From a bacterium (GTDB lineage Bacteria > Sumerlaeota > Sumerlaeia > MVZB01): 40,324 bases of DNA. Made by a program: the position numbers and the translations under genes. Under the pieces are notes generated by a model. The model was not told the DNA's origin. It saw only the letters and a list, made by a program, of their open reading frames with translations, and made no database searches. Shown one piece after another: positions 3,794 to 28,789 of this stretch. Location of the stretch: positions 1 to 40,324 of the forward strand of contig JAJFUE010000005.1 in assembly GCA_021372575.1 (NCBI GenBank), in the 5' to 3' direction. Position 1 is the stretch's first letter, and every line of letters begins with the position of its first letter.

Positions 3794-6655
3794 ATGATGT
3801 CTTGGAAATCACTTCGCATTCTGTTGGCAGCTTTGATTTTCGCGACGTTAAGCATGGGCATGGATGCCCGGGCCGGCTCGGACCTGACTTGGGTCGAGCC
3901 GAAGGCCGGGACGGATCTGGTCAAGCTCAAGGGGGCGATCGAGGCCGGCGGGGGAAAGGTCCTGACGCTGGCGCCCGAGGGGAGGCTGCTGGTGCGGTAT
4001 CCGGCGGGCGCCCAATTGGCGTCGGTTCCCGGCGTGGCCTCGGCTCAGCCGATGGCCGCGGCGGCCATCGAGGCCCAGCCGGCCGGCCGCGGCCTCGGAG
4101 CGCGCAAGCCGACGCCGGAGTCCGAAGCCAAGCTCGGCGCCAAGCGCGTGGCGAGCGTCGCGCCCAACACGCTCAGCACGGACCGCGCGGCGCTGCAGGG
4201 CGAGGCGACGCTGGCATCAAGCGTCGATAACTCGCTGTCGATTTACTTCCCGCCCATCCGCTCGCAGGGCGGCCAGGGTTCGTGCGTGGCGTGGGCGTCG
4301 GCCTACTATTACAACACGTTTACCCAGGCGTCCGACGAAGGTCAGACGGCGTCGTCCGGCAACAACGACGTGATCTGCAGCCCGGCGTTTGTGTATAACC
4401 TCACCAACGGCGGCTACGATAACGGGTTGATCATGACCGACGGCCTGTATCTGATCGGTCTGTCCGGGTCCTGCACGTGGACGATGATGCCTTACAACCA
4501 GACGGACTACCTGACGTGGCCGACCGAGGCGGCGTGGGTCGATGCGCTCAAGCGGCGCACGTCGGATGTGAACGAGATCGGCGACTGGTATGACGGCTGC
4601 ACGGACGCGGACATCCTCGCGATCAAGCAGCATCTGGCCAACGGCAACATCGCCATCACGGGGACGGACATCTTCGACAACATGTATTATTCGTACCCGT
4701 CCAACACGGTTGGCGTGAACAACGGCGTCCTGTTCGCCAACAGCGCGACGTATGTGGGCGGCCATGCGATGACGGTCGTCGGCTACGATGACAACAAGTC
4801 GTATTTCGACGGCACGACGACGAAATACGGCGCGTTCCTCATCGCCAATTCGTGGGGCAACGACTGGGGGACCTACAACTCGGCCGGCACGAGCCTCGGG
4901 TTCATGTGGGTCGCTTACGATTACTTCAAGCTGGGGCACAACGGCTCATACGAGGTGTTCGGCTCGGCGTATTTCAGCAACGACCGCGACAACTACCGGA
5001 GCAAGCTGTATGCCACCGCGGGGGTGAATCACACCAACCGCGGCTACCTCGCCCTGAACGCCGGCGTGGGGCCGGTTGCCACGCCGTTGTGGATGTCGGA
5101 CTACCCGCTCCTGTTCTCGGGCGGCACGGCGACGTCGATCAACGATACGAAGCGGGTCGTAGTCGATATGAACGACGCGATCGAGTCGATCGCCTGGCCC
5201 AATGTCAATTTGTTTGTCGAGACGTATCTGTCGAGCAGCGCGACGAACTATGGCAGCGTCAGCGGCGCGACGTTCTATCATGACTTCGACCACAACGGGA
5301 CGTATGAGCAGGTCGCGGCGACGAACACGCCGTTGACGCTCACGCCGGGGAATTATTCTGACGCCACGGCGCAGTTTGTGTGGTGCGACGGCTCGCTCAA
5401 CAAATTCGCGTGGAGCGCGATCGGGTCGCCGCAGGCGTATCAGCCGTTCACGGCGACGATCACGGCTCAGGACGCGCTCAACCGGGCGGTGACGGGATTC
5501 ACCGGGACGGGGACCGTGCGCGGTTGCGTCGATACGACGACGACGGTCGGTACGGGAACCTACGCCTACAAGCTGCCGCTGGACACGTATTGGAAGGCGG
5601 CGCGCACGCAGAGCATTTACCTGCACAGCGAGCTGGGCGGGGCGGCGACGTGGACGGGACTGCTTCTCGACGTGACGACGATTCCGACGCAGAAGCTGAA
5701 CAACTTCACGATCCGGATCAAGCACACGCAGCAGGCCTACGTCTGGACGCCGGTCTGGGAGGACGGCTGGACGACGGTGTGCCAGCAGGATCGCTGGATC
5801 AACTCGACGGGGTGGGCGTATTTCAAATTCGACAGGCCGTTCGTCTATAACGGCACCGACAACATCATCATCGATTTCTCGTTCTGGAACACCTCGTACA
5901 CGGATGACGCCCTCGTCAACAACACCACCACGAGCGATTATCGCAGCCTGTTCAAGGGGAGCGACACGCTGGGCAACCCGCTGACATGGACGGGATGGAC
6001 GGGCAATCCGGCGACGGCGCAATCGGTTCCGAACATCAAGCTTGTGAACAGCCGCTCGATTTCGATGACGCCGGGCACGACGGGCAATTTCACGGCGGGC
6101 GTCTGGAGCGGTTCGGTCACGGTCAACGAGTCGGTCAATTCGATGTACCTGGAGATCGACGACGGGGCCGGCCATGTGGGCCGGTCGAACCTCTTTAACG
6201 TCGCGCCGGGCAGCCCGACCGGATCGCTGACGGTGACGATCAATCCGCCGGCGGCGGTATCGGCCGGCGCGATGTGGCGGCGCGTGGGCCAATCGACGTG
6301 GCGCGCGAGCGGTTCAACCGAGAGCGGCATCGCTGCGGGCGGCTATACGGTCGAATTCAAGCAGACGCCGGGCTGGAACACGGCCGCCTCGGCACCGGTG
6401 ACGGTCACGTCGGGGGGCAGCGCATCGGCCTCGGGGACCTACACGCAGATGTCGGTGGTGTGGATCGATTTCGGATTCGGAGGGACCGAATACGGAACGC
6501 AAACCGATCCGTATTGCCTGCTCGATCATGGGATCAATGCCGTGACCTCCGGCGGATTGATTTATTTGAAGCCCGGAACGAGCAGTCAGACATTGAGGAT
6601 CACCAAGCCGCTGCGGCTTGAGTCGGTCGGCGGGACGGCCACGATCGGGCGATAA
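3794..6655 (+). CDS. Secreted papain-like (C1) cysteine peptidase with C-terminal modules
   Basis: Exported protease, 953 residues. A signal peptide with a hydrophobic core LLAALIFATLSM is followed by a propeptide-like region. The C1A domain shows the oxyanion Gln and catalytic Cys in GGQGSCVAWASAYYYN (Cys164), the catalytic His in YVGGHAMTVVGYDD (His324) and the Asn in LIANSWGNDWG (Asn352). After about residue 390 come beta-rich modules. One near 810-890 has the pattern GSLTVTINPP...GAMWRR...GGYTVEF...VTVTSGG..SGTY, and the last 65 residues read VWIDFGFGGTEYGTQTDPY...TLRITKPLRLESVGGTATIG, resembling the first rungs of a beta-helix. The start has AAGGTGAAG upstream; ATG 3797 is an equal alternative. 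Family is certain, target unknown. Confidence 0.9.
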   Translation: MMSWKSLRILLAALIFATLSMGMDARAGSDLTWVEPKAGTDLVKLKGAIEAGGGKVLTLAPEGRLLVRYPAGAQLASVPGVASAQPMAAAAIEAQPAGRGLGARKPTPESEAKLGAKRVASVAPNTLSTDRAALQGEATLASSVDNSLSIYFPPIRSQGGQGSCVAWASAYYYNTFTQASDEGQTASSGNNDVICSPAFVYNLTNGGYDNGLIMTDGLYLIGLSGSCTWTMMPYNQTDYLTWPTEAAWVDALKRRTSDVNEIGDWYDGCTDADILAIKQHLANGNIAITGTDIFDNMYYSYPSNTVGVNNGVLFANSATYVGGHAMTVVGYDDNKSYFDGTTTKYGAFLIANSWGNDWGTYNSAGTSLGFMWVAYDYFKLGHNGSYEVFGSAYFSNDRDNYRSKLYATAGVNHTNRGYLALNAGVGPVATPLWMSDYPLLFSGGTATSINDTKRVVVDMNDAIESIAWPNVNLFVETYLSSSATNYGSVSGATFYHDFDHNGTYEQVAATNTPLTLTPGNYSDATAQFVWCDGSLNKFAWSAIGSPQAYQPFTATITAQDALNRAVTGFTGTGTVRGCVDTTTTVGTGTYAYKLPLDTYWKAARTQSIYLHSELGGAATWTGLLLDVTTIPTQKLNNFTIRIKHTQQAYVWTPVWEDGWTTVCQQDRWINSTGWAYFKFDRPFVYNGTDNIIIDFSFWNTSYTDDALVNNTTTSDYRSLFKGSDTLGNPLTWTGWTGNPATAQSVPNIKLVNSRSISMTPGTTGNFTAGVWSGSVTVNESVNSMYLEIDDGAGHVGRSNLFNVAPGSPTGSLTVTINPPAAVSAGAMWRRVGQSTWRASGSTESGIAAGGYTVEFKQTPGWNTAASAPVTVTSGGSASASGTYTQMSVVWIDFGFGGTEYGTQTDPYCLLDHGINAVTSGGLIYLKPGTSSQTLRITKPLRLESVGGTATIGR

Positions 6656-18880: not shown

Positions 18881-21800
18881 ATGGCAAAGAGCATGTTTTC
18901 CCAAGCGAACGGCCGGATAGCCCGGCGCGTTATTTCGGCACCCATGGCGGGTGCCCGGCAAGTCGGAAGATGGCTGGCCGTGGCGGCGCTGATCCTGGCC
19001 GTCGGCGTCTCCGCCCCGGCCCAGAGCCTTTTGCTCAAGAGCGGCGCGATTGATCCGAAGTCGATTCCGGCCGCCAAGGTCGCGAGTATTCCGAAAATCC
19101 AGGCGCTCGCATCAGGCGAACGGCGCGTCGTGCTCGTGCAGTGGTCGTCGCCGATTGATGCGGCCAAGCTCAAGGCGCTCGAGGGCCAGGGCGCGCAGAT
19201 CATCCAGCCTGTTCCCGATCAGGGCTACCTGGTGGCGCTGCCGGCCTCGGTGTCGGTGTCGGGCCTCGCGGGCGTGAAATCGGCCACGGCCCCGAGCTGG
19301 GCGTCGGTGATGGACCCGTCATGGAAGCTGCACCCGGAAGTCTCGAAAAGCATCGAGACGAACGCGGCGGCCAGGCTGAGCGCGGCGGCATCGACCAAGC
19401 AGGTCGTCCGGCGCTACGTCATCCAGGCCGTCAAGACCGGTGGCGAGGCGGCCGTCCAGAAGGCGCTGTCTTCGCGCGGGTTTTCGGCAAAGCAGACGGG
19501 CCAGATGAGCCTGGTCGAAAACTGGACCGTCGAGGCCGACGACGACGCGGTCGCGAGCCTCAGCTATCTCAACTCCGTCATCTGGATCGAGCCGTACCGC
19601 GAGCCGAAACTGCACGGCGAGCGCGAGGCGCTTGCCGTTTCCGGCAATTTTAAGGCCGATTACTCGGACGTCGTCGATGCCGGCTCGAGCGTGTATCAGG
19701 CGTGGCTGAATTCGGTCGGACTGAGCGGCGCGGGCGTCGTCGTGCACGTGATGGACGACGGCCTTTCGCAGGGCAACTACAGCAACATCGACGGCACGGC
19801 CCACCCGGACATCGTCGGCCGGATCGTCGGCATCGACAACGCGACAACCGATGAGTCCGGCGACAGCGGCGGCGGCCATGGCCACCTCAACGCGTCGATC
19901 ATCATGGGCCGGCCGATCGCGGCCGGGGGGCTGCTCGACAAGGACGGCTACAAGCTCGGCCAGGGCGTGGCGCCCAACGCGCGCGTGTATGCGACCAAGA
20001 TCTTCAACAACTTCGACGCGTACGACGTGGGCGGGCGCACGTTCAACTCGATGGTGAGCACCGCCTACATCGCCGGGGCGCGCATTTCGTCCAACTCGTG
20101 GGGCGCGTCGGTCAACGGCGAATACGACTCCCAGGCCCAGCTATACGATTACATGACGCGCGACGCCAGCATGTATGAGACCGGCCTGCAGCCGATGACG
20201 TTCGTTTTCTCCGCCTCCAACGACGGTCCCTATCCGCAGTCGATGGGCTCGCCGGGAACCGGCAAGAACATGATCAGCGTGGGCGCAATGGAAAATGCCG
20301 ACCAGGGCCTGCTGGACGGGAGCGGGATGGGGCCTGAGGAGTCCAACGACATGCGCGACGTGGCGATTTTCTCCAGCCGCGGCCCGCTGGCCGACGGGCG
20401 CATTGGCCCGACCATCGCCGCCGTCGGCGTGCACGTTCCGGGGGCGGCCTCGGACTCGCGCAATTTCAACGGCTCCGGCGTTTCGGGGCGCGACATTTCC
20501 TCGCTGGAGCGCTACGAACCCGTTTCGAACACGAAATACTATCCGGCCAACCAGCACTATTACACATGGAGCAGCGGGACGAGCCATTCGTGCCCGACGG
20601 TCGCCGGCGAGGCGGCGTTGTTCTACGAGTGGTATCTCAAGACCTTCGGCTCGGCCCCGAGCCCCGCGCTGGTCAAGGCGGCCTTGATCGCCGGCGCCAT
20701 CGATCCGGTCGGCGGCCAGGTCAATCGCGGCGGGGAGATGCTCGGCTTCGCCCCGAACAACGAGGTCGGCTGGGGATTCACGACCCTCAAGGGAGTCGTG
20801 GATGGATCGCGGCAGATCCTGATCCGCGACCAGACAAAAATCTTCACCGAGAACAGCCAGACGTTCTATCAGAACGTGCAGGTCCCGGACTCGACCAAGC
20901 CGCTGCGCATCGTGCTCACATGGACCGACGTTCCGGGTTACCCCGGCGCGTCCAAGTCTCTCGTCAATGACCTGGACCTGAGCGTCACCGACGGGACCAC
21001 GATCTGGAAGGGCAACGTGTTCACCAACGGGCGCTCGACCGAGGGCGGCGAGGCCGATCGCGTCAACAACGTCGAGTGCGTGTTCATTCCGAACCCGACG
21101 CCGTCGGTCTATACGATCATGGTCAAGTCGGCCAGCCTGAACGGCGACGCGCTGCCGGGCGTCGGCGGGGCGATCGAGCAGGACTTCGCGCTGATCGTCA
21201 CCAACGGCGCCGACCAGACGCCTGTCGGGCGCGCCTCGTTCGACAAGGCCATTTACGCGTGCAGCGACCCGATCCAGATCTCGGTCAGCGATTCCGACCT
21301 CAAGGGGGCCGGCACGACGACGGTCGATGTCTCGAGCCAGCTCACCGGCGACACGGAGACGATCGTGCTGAACGAGGTTCCGACCCGGACCGGCATCATG
21401 CGCGGCACGCTCTCGTGCAACAGCGAGGATCCGACGGCGGGCGACGGCGTGCTGTCGGTGCGCGACGGCGACACGATCACGGCCGTCTATCACGACGCGA
21501 CCAAGGGCTCCAACGGCCAGCCGCTCGTCTCGACGGCGACCGCGCGCCTGGATTGCTCGGCGCCGGCCCTGTCCGACGTCACGATCGATGAAGTCACCGA
21601 CGAATCGGCGACGATCAGCGTCACGGCCAGCGAGGCCGCGCAAATCGCGATCGTCTATGGGACGGCCGGAGCCGAAACGAGCCTGCAGGTGGTGCACGCG
21701 GTCAGCAGCACGTCGCACACGTTCACGCTGACCGGCCTGACGGCGCAAACGGATTATTTCTTCAAGGTGAGGATGACCGACGCGGCCGGCAACTCGGCCA

Positions 21801-24061
21801 CGGCCGGCAACATCAACGACACGTATTTCGGCTTCCAGACCCGCGGCCGCGAAACGGTCCTTTTCGAACAGATCGAGACCGGCATCGCGAACCGCTGGAG
21901 CCACATCGCCACCGTGGGGACCGACGATTGGCATCCGGCCACGTCGGCCGCGTATGTCAAGTCGCCGACCCACTCCTGGTTCTCGGCGGACGTGAATTCG
22001 GTCAAGGACGACCGGCTGTTCGCGCCGATCGTGGCGCTTCCGAACGGCGACGTGCGCATGGAATTCTGGCACACCTACGAATTCGAGCACGTCGGCGTGA
22101 GCAACGGCTACGACGGCGGCGTCCTCGAGATTACGGACGACGGCGGCGCCAGCTGGACCGACCTCGGGCCCTATATCCTCGAAGGCGGCTACAACTCGAC
22201 CATCTCGTCCTACTTCGACAATCCGCTTGCCGGGAGGCACGCGTGGAGCGGCGGCCAGCTCGGGTCGTTGACCCGCGTGCTCGTCGATCTGAGCGCGTAT
22301 CGCGGCAAGACGGTGCAGGTGCGCTGGAGAATCGGCTGCGATTCGAGCCGCGCCGGCAACGGCTGGTATATCGACGACGTGTCGATTTATTCCTACAGCG
22401 ACATCACGACCCCCCTGGCCCTGCTCCGCTTCGACCAGGATGGCTTCTCCAACTCGACACCGTCCGTCCACTTCAGCATTCGCGATCAGCAATTCTCCAG
22501 CACGGACGAGGGCCAGACGCCGGCCGATTTCTTCGTTTCGGTTCCCGGCCGGCTGGCGCCGGTCGCGATCGACTCGTCGCTCCTGACGCTCAACCCCGTC
22601 ACGCCGGAAATGGACGTGTGGGACGGCTACCTGCCGTTCACGACCGGCAGCCAGCCCGGCCACGTGCTGGTGGCCGGTGCGGTCGATGTGCTCGAGGGCG
22701 AGCGCGTCCGGCTGATTTACTACGACTACAACGACGGGGCCGGGCACGACGTTTATGTCAGCGATGACATCCGCCTCGACAGCACGCCGCCGACGGTGAC
22801 GTCGTTCACTTCGTCGGGCGTGTCCGACAGCTCGTCCGTCTATCACCTGACCACCAGCGAGCCGGCCAGGATCAAGGTCCACTACGGCACGTCGCCGAGC
22901 TACCTGACGCTGCTCATCGAGGACAACGAACTCGCGACGGAGCACGACATCAACTTTGAGAACCTCGCCGCGTGCAAGGCGTATTACTTCTATGTCGAGG
23001 TCACCGACCAGGCGGGCAACACGACGGTGCTCAAGAACCAGGGCGAACTGTTCGGGTTCCGCACCTGCTCGCAAACGGTCACCCTCGACACGCTCGATCC
23101 GGCGCCGACGCTGCGCTGGAGCCATTCGGCCGCCATGGGCACGGATGACTGGACGTATGTCATCAAGTCAAGCGCGTGGAACGCCAACGCGACCGGCTAC
23201 GTGCGCAGCGGCGTCAACGCGTGGTCGTGCGCCGACGTTCCCGAGCTCAAGGACGATTCGCTGGTGCTGGGGCCGTTCACCATCACCTCGATGATGAAGC
23301 TCAGTTTCTGGCACACGTACCAGCTCGAAAAGACTTTCGACGGCGCGGTCATCGAAGTCTCGACCGACGGCGGCAAGAACTGGATCGACCTGGGGCCGGA
23401 AATCATCGAAGGCCGTTACACCGGGATTATTTCCGGCAACTTCCACAGCCCGATCTCGAACCGGTCGGCGTGGACCGGCGGCATGCTCGGCACGATGACG
23501 CAGGTCATCGTCGATCTGCGCAAGTATTCGGGCTCCGACCGGCTGATCCGGTTCCGCCTCGGGTGCGACACGACGCAGAACCAGCGCGGCTGGATGATCG
23601 ACGACGTGTCGCTGATCTCCTACGACACGTGCGGGACGCAGTTCCCGGCGGAGCCGCAGGCGCTCAGCCCGCTCGACAACGCCAAGGGCGTGCCGTTCAA
23701 CCAGCCGGCGCTGTACTGGGAGAAGATCAAGGGCGCGACGAAATACCAGGTCTTCTTCGGCACGTCGGCCGATTCGCTGGCGCTGCTCGGCGAGACGACG
23801 AACAACTATTACGTCGTCCCACAGGTGCTGAAGGCCGGCCGGCGCTACTACTGGGCGGTGCGGGCGTTCAACTCGGTCGGCGCGGGCGACGTGGGCAGCG
23901 CCGTCTCGTTCAAGACCGCGACCGTCGATCCGGCCGCCATCGGGCGGCATATCATCGGCAAGTCATCCCTGATGACCTCCGAGAAGACCGCCGTCGATTA
24001 CAACAACGACGGCATGATCACGATCGACGAATTGGTAACGGATGTTAATAATTCGAGGTAA
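18881..24061 (+). CDS. Large secreted subtilase (S8 peptidase) with duplicated C-terminal modules and terminal EF-hand loop
   Basis: An exported serine protease of 1726 residues. A long N-terminal region with hydrophobic core WLAVAALILAVGVSAPAQS is the signal peptide. The catalytic triad is visible: Asp292 in VVHVMDDGLS, His333 in GGGHGHLNASII and Ser568 in SSGTSHSCPTVAGEAALF, with Asn in FVFSASNDGP. After a jelly-roll-like region (about 640-770) come an Fn3-like module (about 895-990), a choice-of-anchor-like module (993-1173), then a second Fn3-like (about 1305-1400) and a second anchor-like module (1402-1581). These are tandem duplicates: both have RWSH, FWHTY, WIDLGP or WTDLGP, and GWxIDDVS. 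A last Fn3-like module precedes a perfect EF-hand loop DYNNDGMITIDE at the C-terminus. ATG 18881 follows AAGGA. Substrate unknown. Confidence 0.93.
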   Translation: MAKSMFSQANGRIARRVISAPMAGARQVGRWLAVAALILAVGVSAPAQSLLLKSGAIDPKSIPAAKVASIPKIQALASGERRVVLVQWSSPIDAAKLKALEGQGAQIIQPVPDQGYLVALPASVSVSGLAGVKSATAPSWASVMDPSWKLHPEVSKSIETNAAARLSAAASTKQVVRRYVIQAVKTGGEAAVQKALSSRGFSAKQTGQMSLVENWTVEADDDAVASLSYLNSVIWIEPYREPKLHGEREALAVSGNFKADYSDVVDAGSSVYQAWLNSVGLSGAGVVVHVMDDGLSQGNYSNIDGTAHPDIVGRIVGIDNATTDESGDSGGGHGHLNASIIMGRPIAAGGLLDKDGYKLGQGVAPNARVYATKIFNNFDAYDVGGRTFNSMVSTAYIAGARISSNSWGASVNGEYDSQAQLYDYMTRDASMYETGLQPMTFVFSASNDGPYPQSMGSPGTGKNMISVGAMENADQGLLDGSGMGPEESNDMRDVAIFSSRGPLADGRIGPTIAAVGVHVPGAASDSRNFNGSGVSGRDISSLERYEPVSNTKYYPANQHYYTWSSGTSHSCPTVAGEAALFYEWYLKTFGSAPSPALVKAALIAGAIDPVGGQVNRGGEMLGFAPNNEVGWGFTTLKGVVDGSRQILIRDQTKIFTENSQTFYQNVQVPDSTKPLRIVLTWTDVPGYPGASKSLVNDLDLSVTDGTTIWKGNVFTNGRSTEGGEADRVNNVECVFIPNPTPSVYTIMVKSASLNGDALPGVGGAIEQDFALIVTNGADQTPVGRASFDKAIYACSDPIQISVSDSDLKGAGTTTVDVSSQLTGDTETIVLNEVPTRTGIMRGTLSCNSEDPTAGDGVLSVRDGDTITAVYHDATKGSNGQPLVSTATARLDCSAPALSDVTIDEVTDESATISVTASEAAQIAIVYGTAGAETSLQVVHAVSSTSHTFTLTGLTAQTDYFFKVRMTDAAGNSATAGNINDTYFGFQTRGRETVLFEQIETGIANRWSHIATVGTDDWHPATSAAYVKSPTHSWFSADVNSVKDDRLFAPIVALPNGDVRMEFWHTYEFEHVGVSNGYDGGVLEITDDGGASWTDLGPYILEGGYNSTISSYFDNPLAGRHAWSGGQLGSLTRVLVDLSAYRGKTVQVRWRIGCDSSRAGNGWYIDDVSIYSYSDITTPLALLRFDQDGFSNSTPSVHFSIRDQQFSSTDEGQTPADFFVSVPGRLAPVAIDSSLLTLNPVTPEMDVWDGYLPFTTGSQPGHVLVAGAVDVLEGERVRLIYYDYNDGAGHDVYVSDDIRLDSTPPTVTSFTSSGVSDSSSVYHLTTSEPARIKVHYGTSPSYLTLLIEDNELATEHDINFENLAACKAYYFYVEVTDQAGNTTVLKNQGELFGFRTCSQTVTLDTLDPAPTLRWSHSAAMGTDDWTYVIKSSAWNANATGYVRSGVNAWSCADVPELKDDSLVLGPFTITSMMKLSFWHTYQLEKTFDGAVIEVSTDGGKNWIDLGPEIIEGRYTGIISGNFHSPISNRSAWTGGMLGTMTQVIVDLRKYSGSDRLIRFRLGCDTTQNQRGWMIDDVSLISYDTCGTQFPAEPQALSPLDNAKGVPFNQPALYWEKIKGATKYQVFFGTSADSLALLGETTNNYYVVPQVLKAGRRYYWAVRAFNSVGAGDVGSAVSFKTATVDPAAIGRHIIGKSSLMTSEKTAVDYNNDGMITIDELVTDVNNSR

Positions 24062-24270: not shown

Positions 24271-24352
24271 GATCTCGTCAGCCGTTTTGGTTATTGGATC
24301 GATTACGACTACGAGCACGAGCACGAACTGAAAATATTCGTCAAGGGCTCTA
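24271..24352. repeat. Dispersed intergenic element with GATTAC/GAGCAC repeats, copy 2
   Basis: It begins GATCTCGTCAGCCGTTTTGG, continues TTATTGGATC, GATTAC, GACTAC and two GAGCAC units, and ends ATTCGTCAAGGGCTCTA at the stop codon of the DUF62 gene. It matches copy 1 at 6731-6822 except for two fewer GATTAC units and scattered substitutions. The rest of 24114-24270 shows no gene. Confidence 0.8.
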
Positions 24353-25141
24353 CTTAAAGACGACGTCGATGATCGAAATCTTGCCCGCGATTTCAGCGGC
24401 CGAGCCCATGTTGATCCCGATCTCGAGCGTCCCGGCCGAACCCCAGTAGGCAAGGGGAGAACCGGCAGGAACGTTGCTGAACGTTTTCGAGATTTGCGTG
24501 ATGCGCAGCGGGCCGGCCTGGATTTCGAAGGGCTGATCGAATTTTGCCTCGTATTTCTCGCGCCAAATATTTGTTATGAGATTTCCGAATCGATCGACGA
24601 GCATGACGCGCGCGCGAATGCCGTCGGCTGTTTCTTCGGGATCGAGGCTCAGCCGAACGGGATCGGCGACCGGCGGGCCGAGGTGGAATGGATAGCCCTC
24701 CGCCAGCAAAGCCGCGGCCGGCGCGAACAGATCGCGCCCTTGAAATGTAAGGCTCGGCTCTTCCGGGGTTAATAACGGCGCCGGGATCTCAAACAGCTCA
24801 AAATCCGAGGCGCGTTCCAACAGCGGCGTGGCGAGACCGTTGTCCGGTCCCGAGAAATAATGCGTTCCGATTCGGCCCCATATCGCGCGCCGATGCGAGC
24901 CGACGCCAGGATCAACCACGCAGCACAAAACCGCATCGGAGGGGACCGAATTCAACGCGGCGTTCAGCACGAACGCGCCGGCCGCCACGTTCTGCGGCGG
25001 GACTCCGTGGGATAAGTCGATGATCGTGGCATCGGGCGCGCGGCGATGGATTTCGGCCTTCATCGCGCCAACATACCAGTCCTCCAACCCAAAATCCGTC
25101 AGCAGAAAAATCGGCCGAAGTGGGAGCCGGCCGGGCTTCAT
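24350..25141 (-). CDS. SAM hydroxide adenosyltransferase (DUF62 / chlorinase-fluorinase family)
   Basis: Family members split S-adenosylmethionine with water or hydroxide to adenosine and methionine; halide-using relatives (SalL, FlA) are rare. The 263-residue protein has the family marks ITDFG-like FLLTDFGLEDWYVGAMKAEI, IIDLSHGVPPQNVAAGAFVL, CVVDPGVGSHRRAIWGRIG, FSGPDNGLATPLL, FQGRDLFAPAAALLA and the C-terminal LVDRFGNLITNI. The Asp/Arg/His residues of the hydroxide-activating group are plausibly present, so the water-using reaction is more likely than halogenation. Its ATG overlaps the stop codon of the upstream ABC ATPase gene by four bases (ATGA), so translation is coupled. The biological reason for wasting SAM is not known for this family. 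Confidence 0.92.
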   Translation of the reverse strand: MKPGRLPLRPIFLLTDFGLEDWYVGAMKAEIHRRAPDATIIDLSHGVPPQNVAAGAFVLNAALNSVPSDAVLCCVVDPGVGSHRRAIWGRIGTHYFSGPDNGLATPLLERASDFELFEIPAPLLTPEEPSLTFQGRDLFAPAAALLAEGYPFHLGPPVADPVRLSLDPEETADGIRARVMLVDRFGNLITNIWREKYEAKFDQPFEIQAGPLRITQISKTFSNVPAGSPLAYWGSAGTLEIGINMGSAAEIAGKISIIDVVFK

Positions 25142-26049
25142 GACTCCGCCTCGAGTGGCCGGATGAGCGGGCGGGCATCGACCTGGTGCTCGCGCAGGCG
25201 CACGACTTGGGCGCCGCCGGCCGCAAGATCATTGACCACCTCGAGCGGATTCTCGACACGGCCGTCGAGGCTCAGCAAAAGATATTGATCCTCGGCGTCA
25301 GCCTCGAGGATCAACGGATGGCGTTTCGCCTGTTCAAGGATCTCGGACGCCGGGCCGCCAAGCTCGATTTCAAGGAGCCGTCCGCCGCCGAGGCGCGCGG
25401 CGATTTCCGCCGCCGGCCCGAGCGCGATCAGGCGGCCTTCGTGCAGCACCCCGATGCGATCGCACAGGCCGACGAGGTCGGTCATCATGTTCGAGCCGAC
25501 GATGATCGTTTTGCCCATGGCGCGGATGCGGGCGATCAGCCCGCGAATGCGCAGGCACGCCGGCAGGTCGAGCCCGATCGAGGGGTGGTCCAACAGCAGC
25601 ACGGGCGGGTCGTGAACGAGCGTCCGCATGAGGCCCAGGCGCTGGCGCGCCTCGCGGTCAAGGCTATCGACGAACTCATCGGCGCGCTCGGTGAGACCGG
25701 CCAGCCCGAGCAAGTCGCCGGTTTCCGTGTTCGATTCGATGCCGGCGCAGCGCATGAAAAACCCGAGGTATTCGCTGACACGCATGTCGTCGTAGAGGCC
25801 CATGAAGAACGGAAGGTAGCCGACCTTGCGGCGAACCTGATCGGGTTCGCGGACGACGTCGTGGCCGGCGACGGTCGCCGATCCGCCGTCGGGCGCGATC
25901 AGCGTGGCGAGCAGCTTGAGCGTGGTCGATTTGCCCGAATGAATCGGCCCGAGCAGGCCGACGACCTCGCCCTCGGCGACCTGGATCGTCAAGCCCAGCA
26001 GCCTCGAATGGCGGCCAATCGTCCAGGAAAGATCGTGCGTCTGGATCAT
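25138..26049 (-). CDS. Degenerate ABC-2 type transporter ATP-binding protein
   Basis: The 303-residue protein has the ABC ATPase fold but has lost key residues. With MIQTHDLSW as start, Walker A is GPIHSGKS (34-41, Lys40 kept, the middle Gly changed to His). The signature is LDREA instead of LSxGx (130-134), the Walker B catalytic Glu is His155 (LLLDHPSIGLD), and the switch His is Asn187 (GSNMMTD). Surrounding blocks (RRKVGYLPFFMGLYDD, RLGLMRTLVHDPPV, GRLIALG) follow the exporter ATPase subfamily closely, so this is true degeneration within that group. It can probably bind nucleotide but not hydrolyse it. No permease gene is adjacent. Starts at 26079 or 26121 are also open; 26049 has GGGGAC upstream and the usual family N-terminus. 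Confidence 0.88.
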   Translation of the reverse strand: MIQTHDLSWTIGRHSRLLGLTIQVAEGEVVGLLGPIHSGKSTTLKLLATLIAPDGGSATVAGHDVVREPDQVRRKVGYLPFFMGLYDDMRVSEYLGFFMRCAGIESNTETGDLLGLAGLTERADEFVDSLDREARQRLGLMRTLVHDPPVLLLDHPSIGLDLPACLRIRGLIARIRAMGKTIIVGSNMMTDLVGLCDRIGVLHEGRLIALGPAAEIAARLGGGRLLEIELGGPASEILEQAKRHPLILEADAEDQYLLLSLDGRVENPLEVVNDLAAGGAQVVRLREHQVDARPLIRPLEAES

Positions 26050-26194
26050 GAGCCCAAGTCCCCGGTTGAATGTTATCATGTTGCAATCCCGGCCGCGGAA
26101 TGGCCAGCTTAAAAAATACATTTCTTTCCGCGCGCCAAGGTTATAAAAATTTCACTGGCCCTTGTGCCGGTTCAGCCATTTTACGCGAGGCGTC

Positions 26195-28789
26195 ATGTTC
26201 AAGCGAATCCTGCATATCCTGCCTGGCCTGCTCGGGCTGGTTTTGTTTGTCGCCGCCATGGCGTTCCTGCATCATTTACTCAGCCAGTTCAAATATGCCG
26301 AGATCGTCCACAGCCTGCGCGCCATCCCGACGCGCTCGCTGACGATCGCGACGTTGCTGACGATTTCCGCGTATTGGCTGCTGACGCTTTACGACCAGAT
26401 GGCGTGCCTTTACGTGGGCAACCCCCTGCCGTACCGTCGCGTGGCGCTGGTGTCGTATGTCGGCTACGCGTTCGCGAACAGCGTCGGCCTGGCCAATCTC
26501 GCCGGCGGCTCGATCCGGTTCCGCTTTTACATCAGCTGGGGCTTTTCGCCCATCGACATCACCAAGATCGTGTTGTTCTGCGGGCTGAGCCTGTGGCTCG
26601 GGCTCGCGTTGCTCATGAGCGTCTTGCTTTGCTGGATACCCGGCCCGATTTCCCACCAGCTCGGCATGTCGCTGGCGCCGTTGCGGCCGATCGGGATCGC
26701 GCTCATCACGGGCATCGCGATTTATGCGCTCGTGTGCACGGTGCGCCGCAAGCCGCTGTCGTGGCGCGGGCTCGAGCTACAACTTCCCGCGCCGCCCCTC
26801 GTGGTCAGCCAGTTCATACTGGGCTCGCTCGACTGGCTTCTGTGCGGCGCGGTGCTTTACCAACTCCTTCCCCAGCAGTCGCACATTAGTTTCCCGCTGT
26901 TCATGGCCGTGTTCATGCTCGGCCACGCGGCCGGCGGGGTGAGCCAGGTTCCGGGCGGGCTGGGCGTGTTCGAGAGCACGATGCTTCTGGCGCTCGACGG
27001 CACGGCGCCGCGCCAGCAGCTCATCGGGGCGCTGCTGGCCTACCGCGCGATCTATTACCTGTTGCCGCTGATCGGCGCATCGGCCGCGCTGGCGATCCAC
27101 GAACTGACGATCCAGCGCAAGCAGATCCGCCAGATCGGGCGCGTGCTGAGCTCATGGGTGCCGCCGGTCGTGCCGCAGGTGCTGGTCTTTTCGACGTTCT
27201 TCGCCGGGGTGATCCTGCTGATGTCGGGCGCGACGCCGCCCAGCCACGACCGCCTCGACTGGCTGCGCGAATACTTTCCATTGCCATTGGTGGAGGCCTC
27301 GCACTTCCTCGGCTCGATCATCGGCATGGGTTTGCTCATTCTTGCGCGCGGCTTGCAGCGGCGGCTCGATGCCGCGTACTGGCTGACGGCGATCCTGCTG
27401 GGGCTCTCCATTTTCACGGCGCTGTTCAAGGGCTTCAACTACGAGGAATCGATCGTGCTGGTGCTGATGCTGATGGCGCTGCTGCCGGCGCGGCGGCATT
27501 TCTATCGCAAGGCGTCGCTGCTCAGCGAGCCGTTCACGACGAGCTGGGTCATCGCGATCGTGCTGGTGCTGGCGACCTCGATCTGGCTCGGCATGTTCGC
27601 GCACCGGAACGAGACATACGCCGAGGACCTGTGGTGGAAGTTCGCGTTCAACGCCAGCGCGCCGCGTTTCCTGCGCGCGAGCATCGGCGCCGCCTGCGTG
27701 GCGCTTCTCGTGAGCATCGCGCAACTCCTGCGCCAGGCCGAATATATGCCGGTGCGGCCGGCCGCCGAGGATCTCGAACGCATCAAGCCGATCGTCGAGT
27801 CCTCAGGCGAGACCTATCCATGGATGGTGATGCTCGGCGACAAGCAGTTCCTGCCCGGTCCGAGCGGCAAGTCGTTTCTGATGTTCGGCGTGGAGGGCCG
27901 CAGTTGGATCGCGTTGCGCGAGCCCGTGGGCGCGGAGGAGGACTACCCCGACCTGTTGTGGCGATTCCGCGAACTGTGCGAGCACCACGGCGGGTGGACG
28001 GTGTTCTACCAGATCTCGCCGCGGCGCCTGAACCTTTACATCGACCTCGGCCTCGCCCTCCTGAAAATCGGCGAGGAGGCGTTCGTCGATCTCGCCCAGT
28101 TCACGATCGAGGGCCGGCACCAGCGCGACTTCCGCCAGGCCGTCAACCGCATCGAGCATGAGGACGGACGCATGGAGATCCTGCCGGCCGGATCGGCGAC
28201 CTCGATCCTCTCCGAGCTCAAAACGATTTCCGACGCATGGGTCGAAAGCCGCGCCGGCGGCGAAAAAGGCTTCTCGCTCGGGTTCTTCGACGAGGCGTAT
28301 CTCAACCGCACGCCGCTTGCCGTCGTGCGTCATGGCGGCCGCATCGTCGCGTTCGCGAACGTGCTGATGAGCGGCGGCAAGGAAGAGCTGTCGGTCGATC
28401 TGATGCGCCACCTGCCCGACGGGCCGGCCGGCGTGATGGATTACCTGTTCGTCAAGCTCATGCAATGGGGCCGCGAGGACGGCTACAAGCGCTTCAACCT
28501 CGGCATGACCCCGCTGGCGGGCCTCGAGACGCACCAACTCGCGCCGATGTGGAACCGCATCGGCGGCCTGCTCTACCGCCACGGCGAACACTTTTATAAT
28601 TTCAAGGGTTTACGGCAATACAAGGAGAAGTTCCATCCGCAGTGGGAACCGCGCTACCTGGCCACGCCGGGCGGCCTGATCACGCCGAGGGTCCTCGTCG
28701 ATCTGGCCGCGATCATCGGGCGCAAAGGCCCGAAAAACCGCAAGGAACGCAAGTTCGAGTTGCGCCGCAAACTCGCGCGCCACGTTTGA
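26195..28789 (+). CDS. mprF: MprF-type phosphatidylglycerol lysyltransferase/flippase
   Basis: Membrane protein that transfers an amino acid (usually lysine, from its tRNA) to phosphatidylglycerol and flips the product outward, lowering the negative charge of the membrane and giving resistance to cationic peptides. The 864 residues hold about 14 hydrophobic segments (to about residue 510), with flippase-like blocks SVGLANLAGGSIRFRFY and AGGVSQVPGGLGVFESTMLL, then a cytosolic DUF2156 synthase domain: FLMFGVEGRSWIALREPVG, LGLALLKIGEEAFVDLAQF, GFFDEAYLNRTPLAVVRHGG, MDYLFVKLMQWGREDGYKRF and NLGMTPLAGL. ATG 26195 follows GCGAGG; the frame opens 11 codons earlier without a ribosome binding site. 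glgC follows 39 bases later, so they may be cotranscribed. The amino acid transferred is unknown. Confidence 0.95.
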   Translation: MFKRILHILPGLLGLVLFVAAMAFLHHLLSQFKYAEIVHSLRAIPTRSLTIATLLTISAYWLLTLYDQMACLYVGNPLPYRRVALVSYVGYAFANSVGLANLAGGSIRFRFYISWGFSPIDITKIVLFCGLSLWLGLALLMSVLLCWIPGPISHQLGMSLAPLRPIGIALITGIAIYALVCTVRRKPLSWRGLELQLPAPPLVVSQFILGSLDWLLCGAVLYQLLPQQSHISFPLFMAVFMLGHAAGGVSQVPGGLGVFESTMLLALDGTAPRQQLIGALLAYRAIYYLLPLIGASAALAIHELTIQRKQIRQIGRVLSSWVPPVVPQVLVFSTFFAGVILLMSGATPPSHDRLDWLREYFPLPLVEASHFLGSIIGMGLLILARGLQRRLDAAYWLTAILLGLSIFTALFKGFNYEESIVLVLMLMALLPARRHFYRKASLLSEPFTTSWVIAIVLVLATSIWLGMFAHRNETYAEDLWWKFAFNASAPRFLRASIGAACVALLVSIAQLLRQAEYMPVRPAAEDLERIKPIVESSGETYPWMVMLGDKQFLPGPSGKSFLMFGVEGRSWIALREPVGAEEDYPDLLWRFRELCEHHGGWTVFYQISPRRLNLYIDLGLALLKIGEEAFVDLAQFTIEGRHQRDFRQAVNRIEHEDGRMEILPAGSATSILSELKTISDAWVESRAGGEKGFSLGFFDEAYLNRTPLAVVRHGGRIVAFANVLMSGGKEELSVDLMRHLPDGPAGVMDYLFVKLMQWGREDGYKRFNLGMTPLAGLETHQLAPMWNRIGGLLYRHGEHFYNFKGLRQYKEKFHPQWEPRYLATPGGLITPRVLVDLAAIIGRKGPKNRKERKFELRRKLARHV

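Follow-up and report, generated by a model that had tools for sequence, protein, structure and literature searches.

An ABC-2-type ATPase paralogue with degenerate catalytic motifs in two genera of Sumerlaeota, a candidate non-hydrolysing subunit

The locus and its genes

The window, i.e. the whole stretch of 40,324 nucleotides that was analysed (contig JAJFUE010000005.1 of the Sumerlaeota assembly GCA_021372575.1), carries on the minus strand, at positions 25138-26049, the gene of a degenerate ABC-2-type (DrrA/GldA-like) ATPase paralogue of 303 residues, hereafter P0001. The reading frame is open throughout, with zero stops, its start codon at MIQ is backed by alignment with relatives, and the GC content at the three codon positions (0.73/0.43/0.84) follows a coding pattern; the intact frame described in an earlier note on this DNA is thus borne out. 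The product is recognised by the Pfam ABC_tran profile over the curated cut-off (68.4 bits versus 25), while the C-terminal DrrA domain is not recognised by Pfam. The top NCBIfam matches are drrA (TIGR01188; score 163, cut-off 312) and GldA (TIGR03522; score 158, cut-off 403), both under their cut-offs, which is also the case for an intact paralogue encoded in the same genome (247 and 235, respectively).

Downstream, and also on the minus strand (24350-25141), lies the gene of a SAM hydrolase (SAM hydroxide adenosyltransferase, DUF62) of 263 residues, assigned through the Pfam domains SAM_HAT_N and SAM_HAT_C, the NCBIfam (R)-SAM hydrolase match being below cut-off. Its ATG (25141) falls inside the stop codon of the ABC gene (25138), giving the four-base ATGA overlap that had been pointed out before, and the two genes are probably co-transcribed in this genome. 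On the other side, the ABC gene adjoins a divergent gene for phosphatidylglycerol lysyltransferase (LPG synthase; 26162-28789, plus strand), and no ABC-2 permease is adjacent.

The SAM hydrolase has Gln (TFQGRD) at the position of His127 of PH0463, which we take to be a member of the catalytic triad, and keeps the counterparts of Asp68 and Arg75. In the aligned Sumerlaeota loci this position is mostly His, with Gln in one locus of another genome (L094 of G005) and Glu in L103, L104, L107 and L108; therefore, it varies naturally. Elsewhere in the window, the plus strand encodes two predicted very large proteases, namely a papain-family protein of 953 residues (3794-6655) and a subtilase of 1726 residues with fibronectin and MAM-like domains (18881-24061).

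Motif losses in P0001 and in its orthologue

The motifs of P0001, all given here on the minus strand, differ in the degree to which they are kept. Walker A (GPIHSGKST, residues 34-42; 25924-25950) matches the GxxxxGK[ST] pattern, with the P-loop Lys40 and Ser41 in place. The signature (residues 130-134; 25648-25662) reads LDREA where intact relatives have LSRGM, and thus lacks both the Ser and the second Gly of the LSxG sequence of active ABC domains. In Walker B (VLLLDHP, residues 150-156; 25582-25602) Asp154 is kept and the catalytic residue that follows it, Glu155, is replaced by His, and in the switch (VGSN, residues 184-187; 25489-25500), which is ISSH in intact relatives, His187 is replaced by Asn. 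The A-loop aromatic residue is also replaced (Ile11). The segment formed by the Q-loop and the region that docks on the membrane subunit (residues 76-105; 25735-25824), a role that we take from general knowledge of ABC transporters, is preserved to much the same degree as in distant relatives with intact motifs, the Q-loop itself being LPFF instead of MPDF.

The aberrant signature, Walker B, switch and Walker A sequences are those claimed in the earlier note, and a control within the same genome sets them apart: all 43 other readable ABC domains, read region by region, keep the S-x-G of the signature and the Walker B Glu. Locus L207 was left out of this control, being unreadable by the motif scan, and in three Wzt-type domains, where the scan picked the D-loop, the Walker B Glu was read by eye. 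In one further ABC domain (L201, G000:C192:22693-23133) the signature (YSTGQ) and Walker B (DEP) are both intact, and the switch His was not seen in the stretch read.

A search with a two-sequence profile of 61 genomes, comprising the genome of the window, all available relatives from the phylum and outgroups, revealed an orthologue in exactly one of the 60 other genomes, G001, which belongs to the same family and to another genus. The two proteins share 39% identity; P0001 and the G001 protein score 566 and 592 bits, respectively, and the next best match, at 272 bits, is the intact paralogue of the window genome. The G001 gene lies downstream of hprK, with no permease nearby. Its motifs read GPIGSGKSA, LGREE, LLILDSP, GLPL and LGTN: the Gly replaced by His37 in P0001 is present, a change that the orthologue thus does not share, but the Ser and second Gly of the signature, the Glu after the Walker B Asp (DSP, as opposed to DHP in P0001), the switch His (GTN, as opposed to GSN) and the A-loop aromatic residue are lost here too. 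With the strict positions of 17 intact Sumerlaeota-type ATPases as the reference, the changes N36I, A38S, T41S, G133E, C139G, P162L, S185G, H187N and E191D are common to both proteins, and K9, S131, M134 and E155 are lost in both, each to differing residues (E155 to His in P0001 and to Ser in G001). The G001 copy has lost, in addition, T42 of the P-loop (T42A) and D161 of the D-loop (D161P).

The substitutions that the earlier note had proposed to look for in relatives are therefore found in part, with Gly to Glu in the signature, His to Asn in the switch and the catalytic Glu missing, and the sole orthologue is degenerate instead of carrying standard motifs. As such common changes are present in a second genome, the loss of motifs is not the private decay of one copy, an explanation which is thereby ruled out. 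A sequencing error is unlikely as well, since three motifs are altered without any frameshift and the changes are shared with the orthologue. Most simply, at least the signature Gly and the switch His would have changed before the two genera diverged, whereas the loss of the catalytic Glu may fall on either side of that divergence.

In the phylogenetic tree the two proteins form one clade (support 100/99) among the intact exporter ATPases of Sumerlaeota, although the exact sister of the pair is not resolved and the long branches make the placement less sure. Together with DrrA and GldA as the nearest named families, this agrees with the ABC-2 exporter subfamily proposed earlier. The stem of the pair measures 1.72 and the tips 1.82 and 2.53 changes per column, the latter being about six to eight times the median tip (0.32). 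A peptide-pattern scan of 84,980 named genomes, which depends on short matching peptides and could overlook divergent members, returned only intact, distant relatives with no more than 36% identity.

Constraint, fold and the parent exporter

Both frames are open, with a GC content at third codon positions of 0.84 (P0001) and 0.88 (G001). In a pairwise codon model an omega of 1 was rejected over the whole divergence of the two genes (2dlnL 107), only the test against omega = 1 being usable, since synonymous sites are saturated at this distance and the dN/dS value suggested in the earlier note as a check is, as a consequence, unobtainable. The raised rate on the branches of the pair reflects weak constraint. 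Thus, the view that the changes had been selected, instead of resulting from random decay, holds to the extent that the losses are shared with the orthologue and that omega = 1 is rejected, but it has to be set against a strongly raised rate.

Conservation also differs along the protein. In the switch region, 36% of the family-strict positions are kept in the degenerate pair, compared with 73-91% in seven intact relatives, and in the P-loop region 53% compared with 67-93%. In the Q-loop and docking segment (residues 76-105), 56% (P0001) and 70% (G001) are kept, against 56-78% in the same seven relatives. The N-terminal A-loop part of the two proteins is likewise poorly preserved, with 31% and 23% of the strict positions left. 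It is thus chiefly the machinery for hydrolysis that has suffered, along with this N-terminal part. An AlphaFold2 model built on a four-sequence alignment has an ABC-type fold (pLDDT 75, pTM 0.64; residues 84-121 and 289-303 unreliable), and Foldseek matches it best to ABC ATPases, with TM_1403 and TM0544 at the top.

The exporter from which P0001 appears to derive is found in various states of preservation. In G003 (L083), one strand carries in succession the genes for a large protein (p860, with a weak DUF4350 match in the window genome), for the ATPase and for the permease, then a 744-codon gene and the gene for a MoxR-like ATPase, the last two being named by a look at their sequences only. 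The window genome splits the exporter genes, with p860 and the intact ATPase (LSRGM, LLLDEP and SSH) on contig C13 (L082) and the permease homologue on contig C193 (L170). The absence of a permease next to P0001, correctly stated in the earlier note, is thus not distinctive, as the intact paralogue is likewise without one. The only traces of the exporter in G001 are on contig C67 (L169, about 500-1870): what is left of p860 is frameshifted and has an internal deletion, and the permease is reduced to an inverted N-terminal fragment and a C-terminal part, with no ATPase between these pieces. This locus may be a genuine wreck, a misassembly being less likely in view of the several kinds of lesion. 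No intact ATPase paralogue was found in G001, a genome 81% complete, nor were a P0001-type gene and the exporter in G002, at 71% completeness, so that both absences weigh little.

A putative non-hydrolysing subunit and the alternatives

It was previously suggested that P0001 could be a nucleotide sensor, unable to hydrolyse ATP and linked to SAM cleavage; this was weighed here as a sensor of nucleotides or SAM that works with the adjoining SAM hydrolase. The four-base overlap, with the probable translational coupling that it entails in the window, is what favours such a link, but the pairing is not found in relatives: 34 of 40 Sumerlaeota genomes encode a SAM hydrolase, which is thus nearly universal in the phylum and does without such a partner, and at the further loci examined, from about 30 genomes, no ABC homologue lies within about 1.5 kb of it. 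G002 and G003 have none next to their SAM hydrolase either. The two genes are on separate contigs in G001, where the SAM hydrolase follows a 956-codon gene and the orthologue adjoins hprK. The partnership was rejected because the pairing is conserved neither in G001 nor in any other locus searched; as a conserved system it is refuted, and even in the window we regard it as highly improbable. The overlap is taken to be an incidental local arrangement, which illustrates that even a striking overlap between genes can be incidental.

Of the remaining explanations, there is about an even chance that P0001 is a pseudo-ATPase paralogue of the Sumerlaeota exporter motor, which would act as a non-hydrolysing subunit. 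According to this proposal, a paralogue of a DrrA/GldA-type exporter ATPase would have lost the signature Ser and Gly, the Walker B Glu and the switch His, in part, on the simplest account, before the two genera separated, while retaining the P-loop Lys and Ser, the Walker B Asp and the segment for docking on the membrane subunit. With its catalytic Glu, switch His and signature Ser and Gly all missing, an ABC protein is expected neither to hydrolyse ATP nor to form the closed ATP sandwich. P0001 would still fold as an ABC nucleotide-binding domain and, since the P-loop Lys and Ser and the Walker B Asp are kept, may still bind nucleotide weakly, although the A-loop aromatic residue is gone. 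The protein could then assist a permease or an active ABC ATPase in a regulatory or structural capacity, and retention of the docking segment suggests a partner subunit. Set against this are the long tips, the broken exporter and the further losses in G001, the occurrence in two genomes only, the A-loop aromatic residue missing from both copies and the failure to identify a partner. With the exporter locus broken and no intact paralogue found, strict dependence on that exporter is questionable in G001.

The main rival, and a serious one, is that P0001 is a slowly decaying relic, i.e. a duplicated exporter ATPase which drifts, weakly constrained, after losing its role and has survived so far by luck or because it lies upstream of a gene that is needed, which in the window would be the SAM hydrolase. 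The very long stem and tips, T42A and D161P in G001, the wrecked parent exporter in the same genome and the failure to find either the gene or the exporter in G002 (incomplete as it is) are all in keeping with decay; yet at 39% identity two lineages still hold about 300 open codons with coding third positions, omega = 1 is rejected over their divergence, the docking segment is kept in preference to the catalytic parts, and the shared signature and switch changes imply that the copies persisted long after inactivation. Decay is, on balance, the less likely explanation, although the evidence is not decisive between it and the pseudo-ATPase partner. It is quite unlikely that P0001 has been repurposed as a P-loop protein outside transport, in which the ABC fold would support a new ligand or protein interaction, for instance as a nucleotide sensor, scaffold or regulator. 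Both copies keep the P-loop Lys and Ser and the Walker B Asp, neither has a permease nearby, and that of G001 persists despite the broken exporter, but no ligand is supported, no neighbour is conserved and the docking segment, a typical feature of transporter subunits, is still present. Along related lines, we consider it unlikely that the pair represents a stand-alone pseudo-ATPase family that outlives its exporter (intact in the window genome, wrecked in G001) as a nucleotide-binding switch or scaffold without hydrolysis.

Should mere decay be at work, P0001 is an unremarkable case of exporter loss. As an ABC ATPase that is separately encoded, has lost all three catalytic motifs and is open in two genera, it would otherwise be a natural experiment on the functions open to an ABC domain once hydrolysis is gone. 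A search for ABC pseudo-ATPases in a body of literature with few subscription journals yielded nothing usable. With the DrrA/GldA-type exporter ATPases P0001 shares family, length, P-loop, Walker B Asp, docking segment and position in the tree; it differs from them in the lost signature, catalytic Glu, switch His and A-loop aromatic residue, in having no DrrA C-terminal domain by Pfam, in scoring far below the cut-offs and in having no adjoining permease. The neighbouring gene is a clear member of the SAM hydrolases (DUF62, Pfam SAM_HAT), separate from the ABC gene and elsewhere unlinked to it. Degenerate nucleotide-binding domains are well known from heterodimeric ABC exporters such as TM287/288, TAP1/2, CFTR and BmrCD, in which the degenerate domain is normally paired with a second one so that a single ATP site still functions. 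P0001 resembles them as an ABC subunit without consensus catalytic residues, theirs being thought to act with an active partner. However, it has neither a fused membrane domain nor an adjacent partner gene, and, whereas TM287/288-type heterodimers usually have their defects distributed in a way that leaves one composite site intact, P0001 alone has lost the Walker B Glu, the switch His and the signature, so that both sites of a heterodimer containing it would be impaired. Degenerate ABC domains being generally known, a separately encoded ABC ATPase that lacks all three motifs in two genera is a modest variant of this theme.
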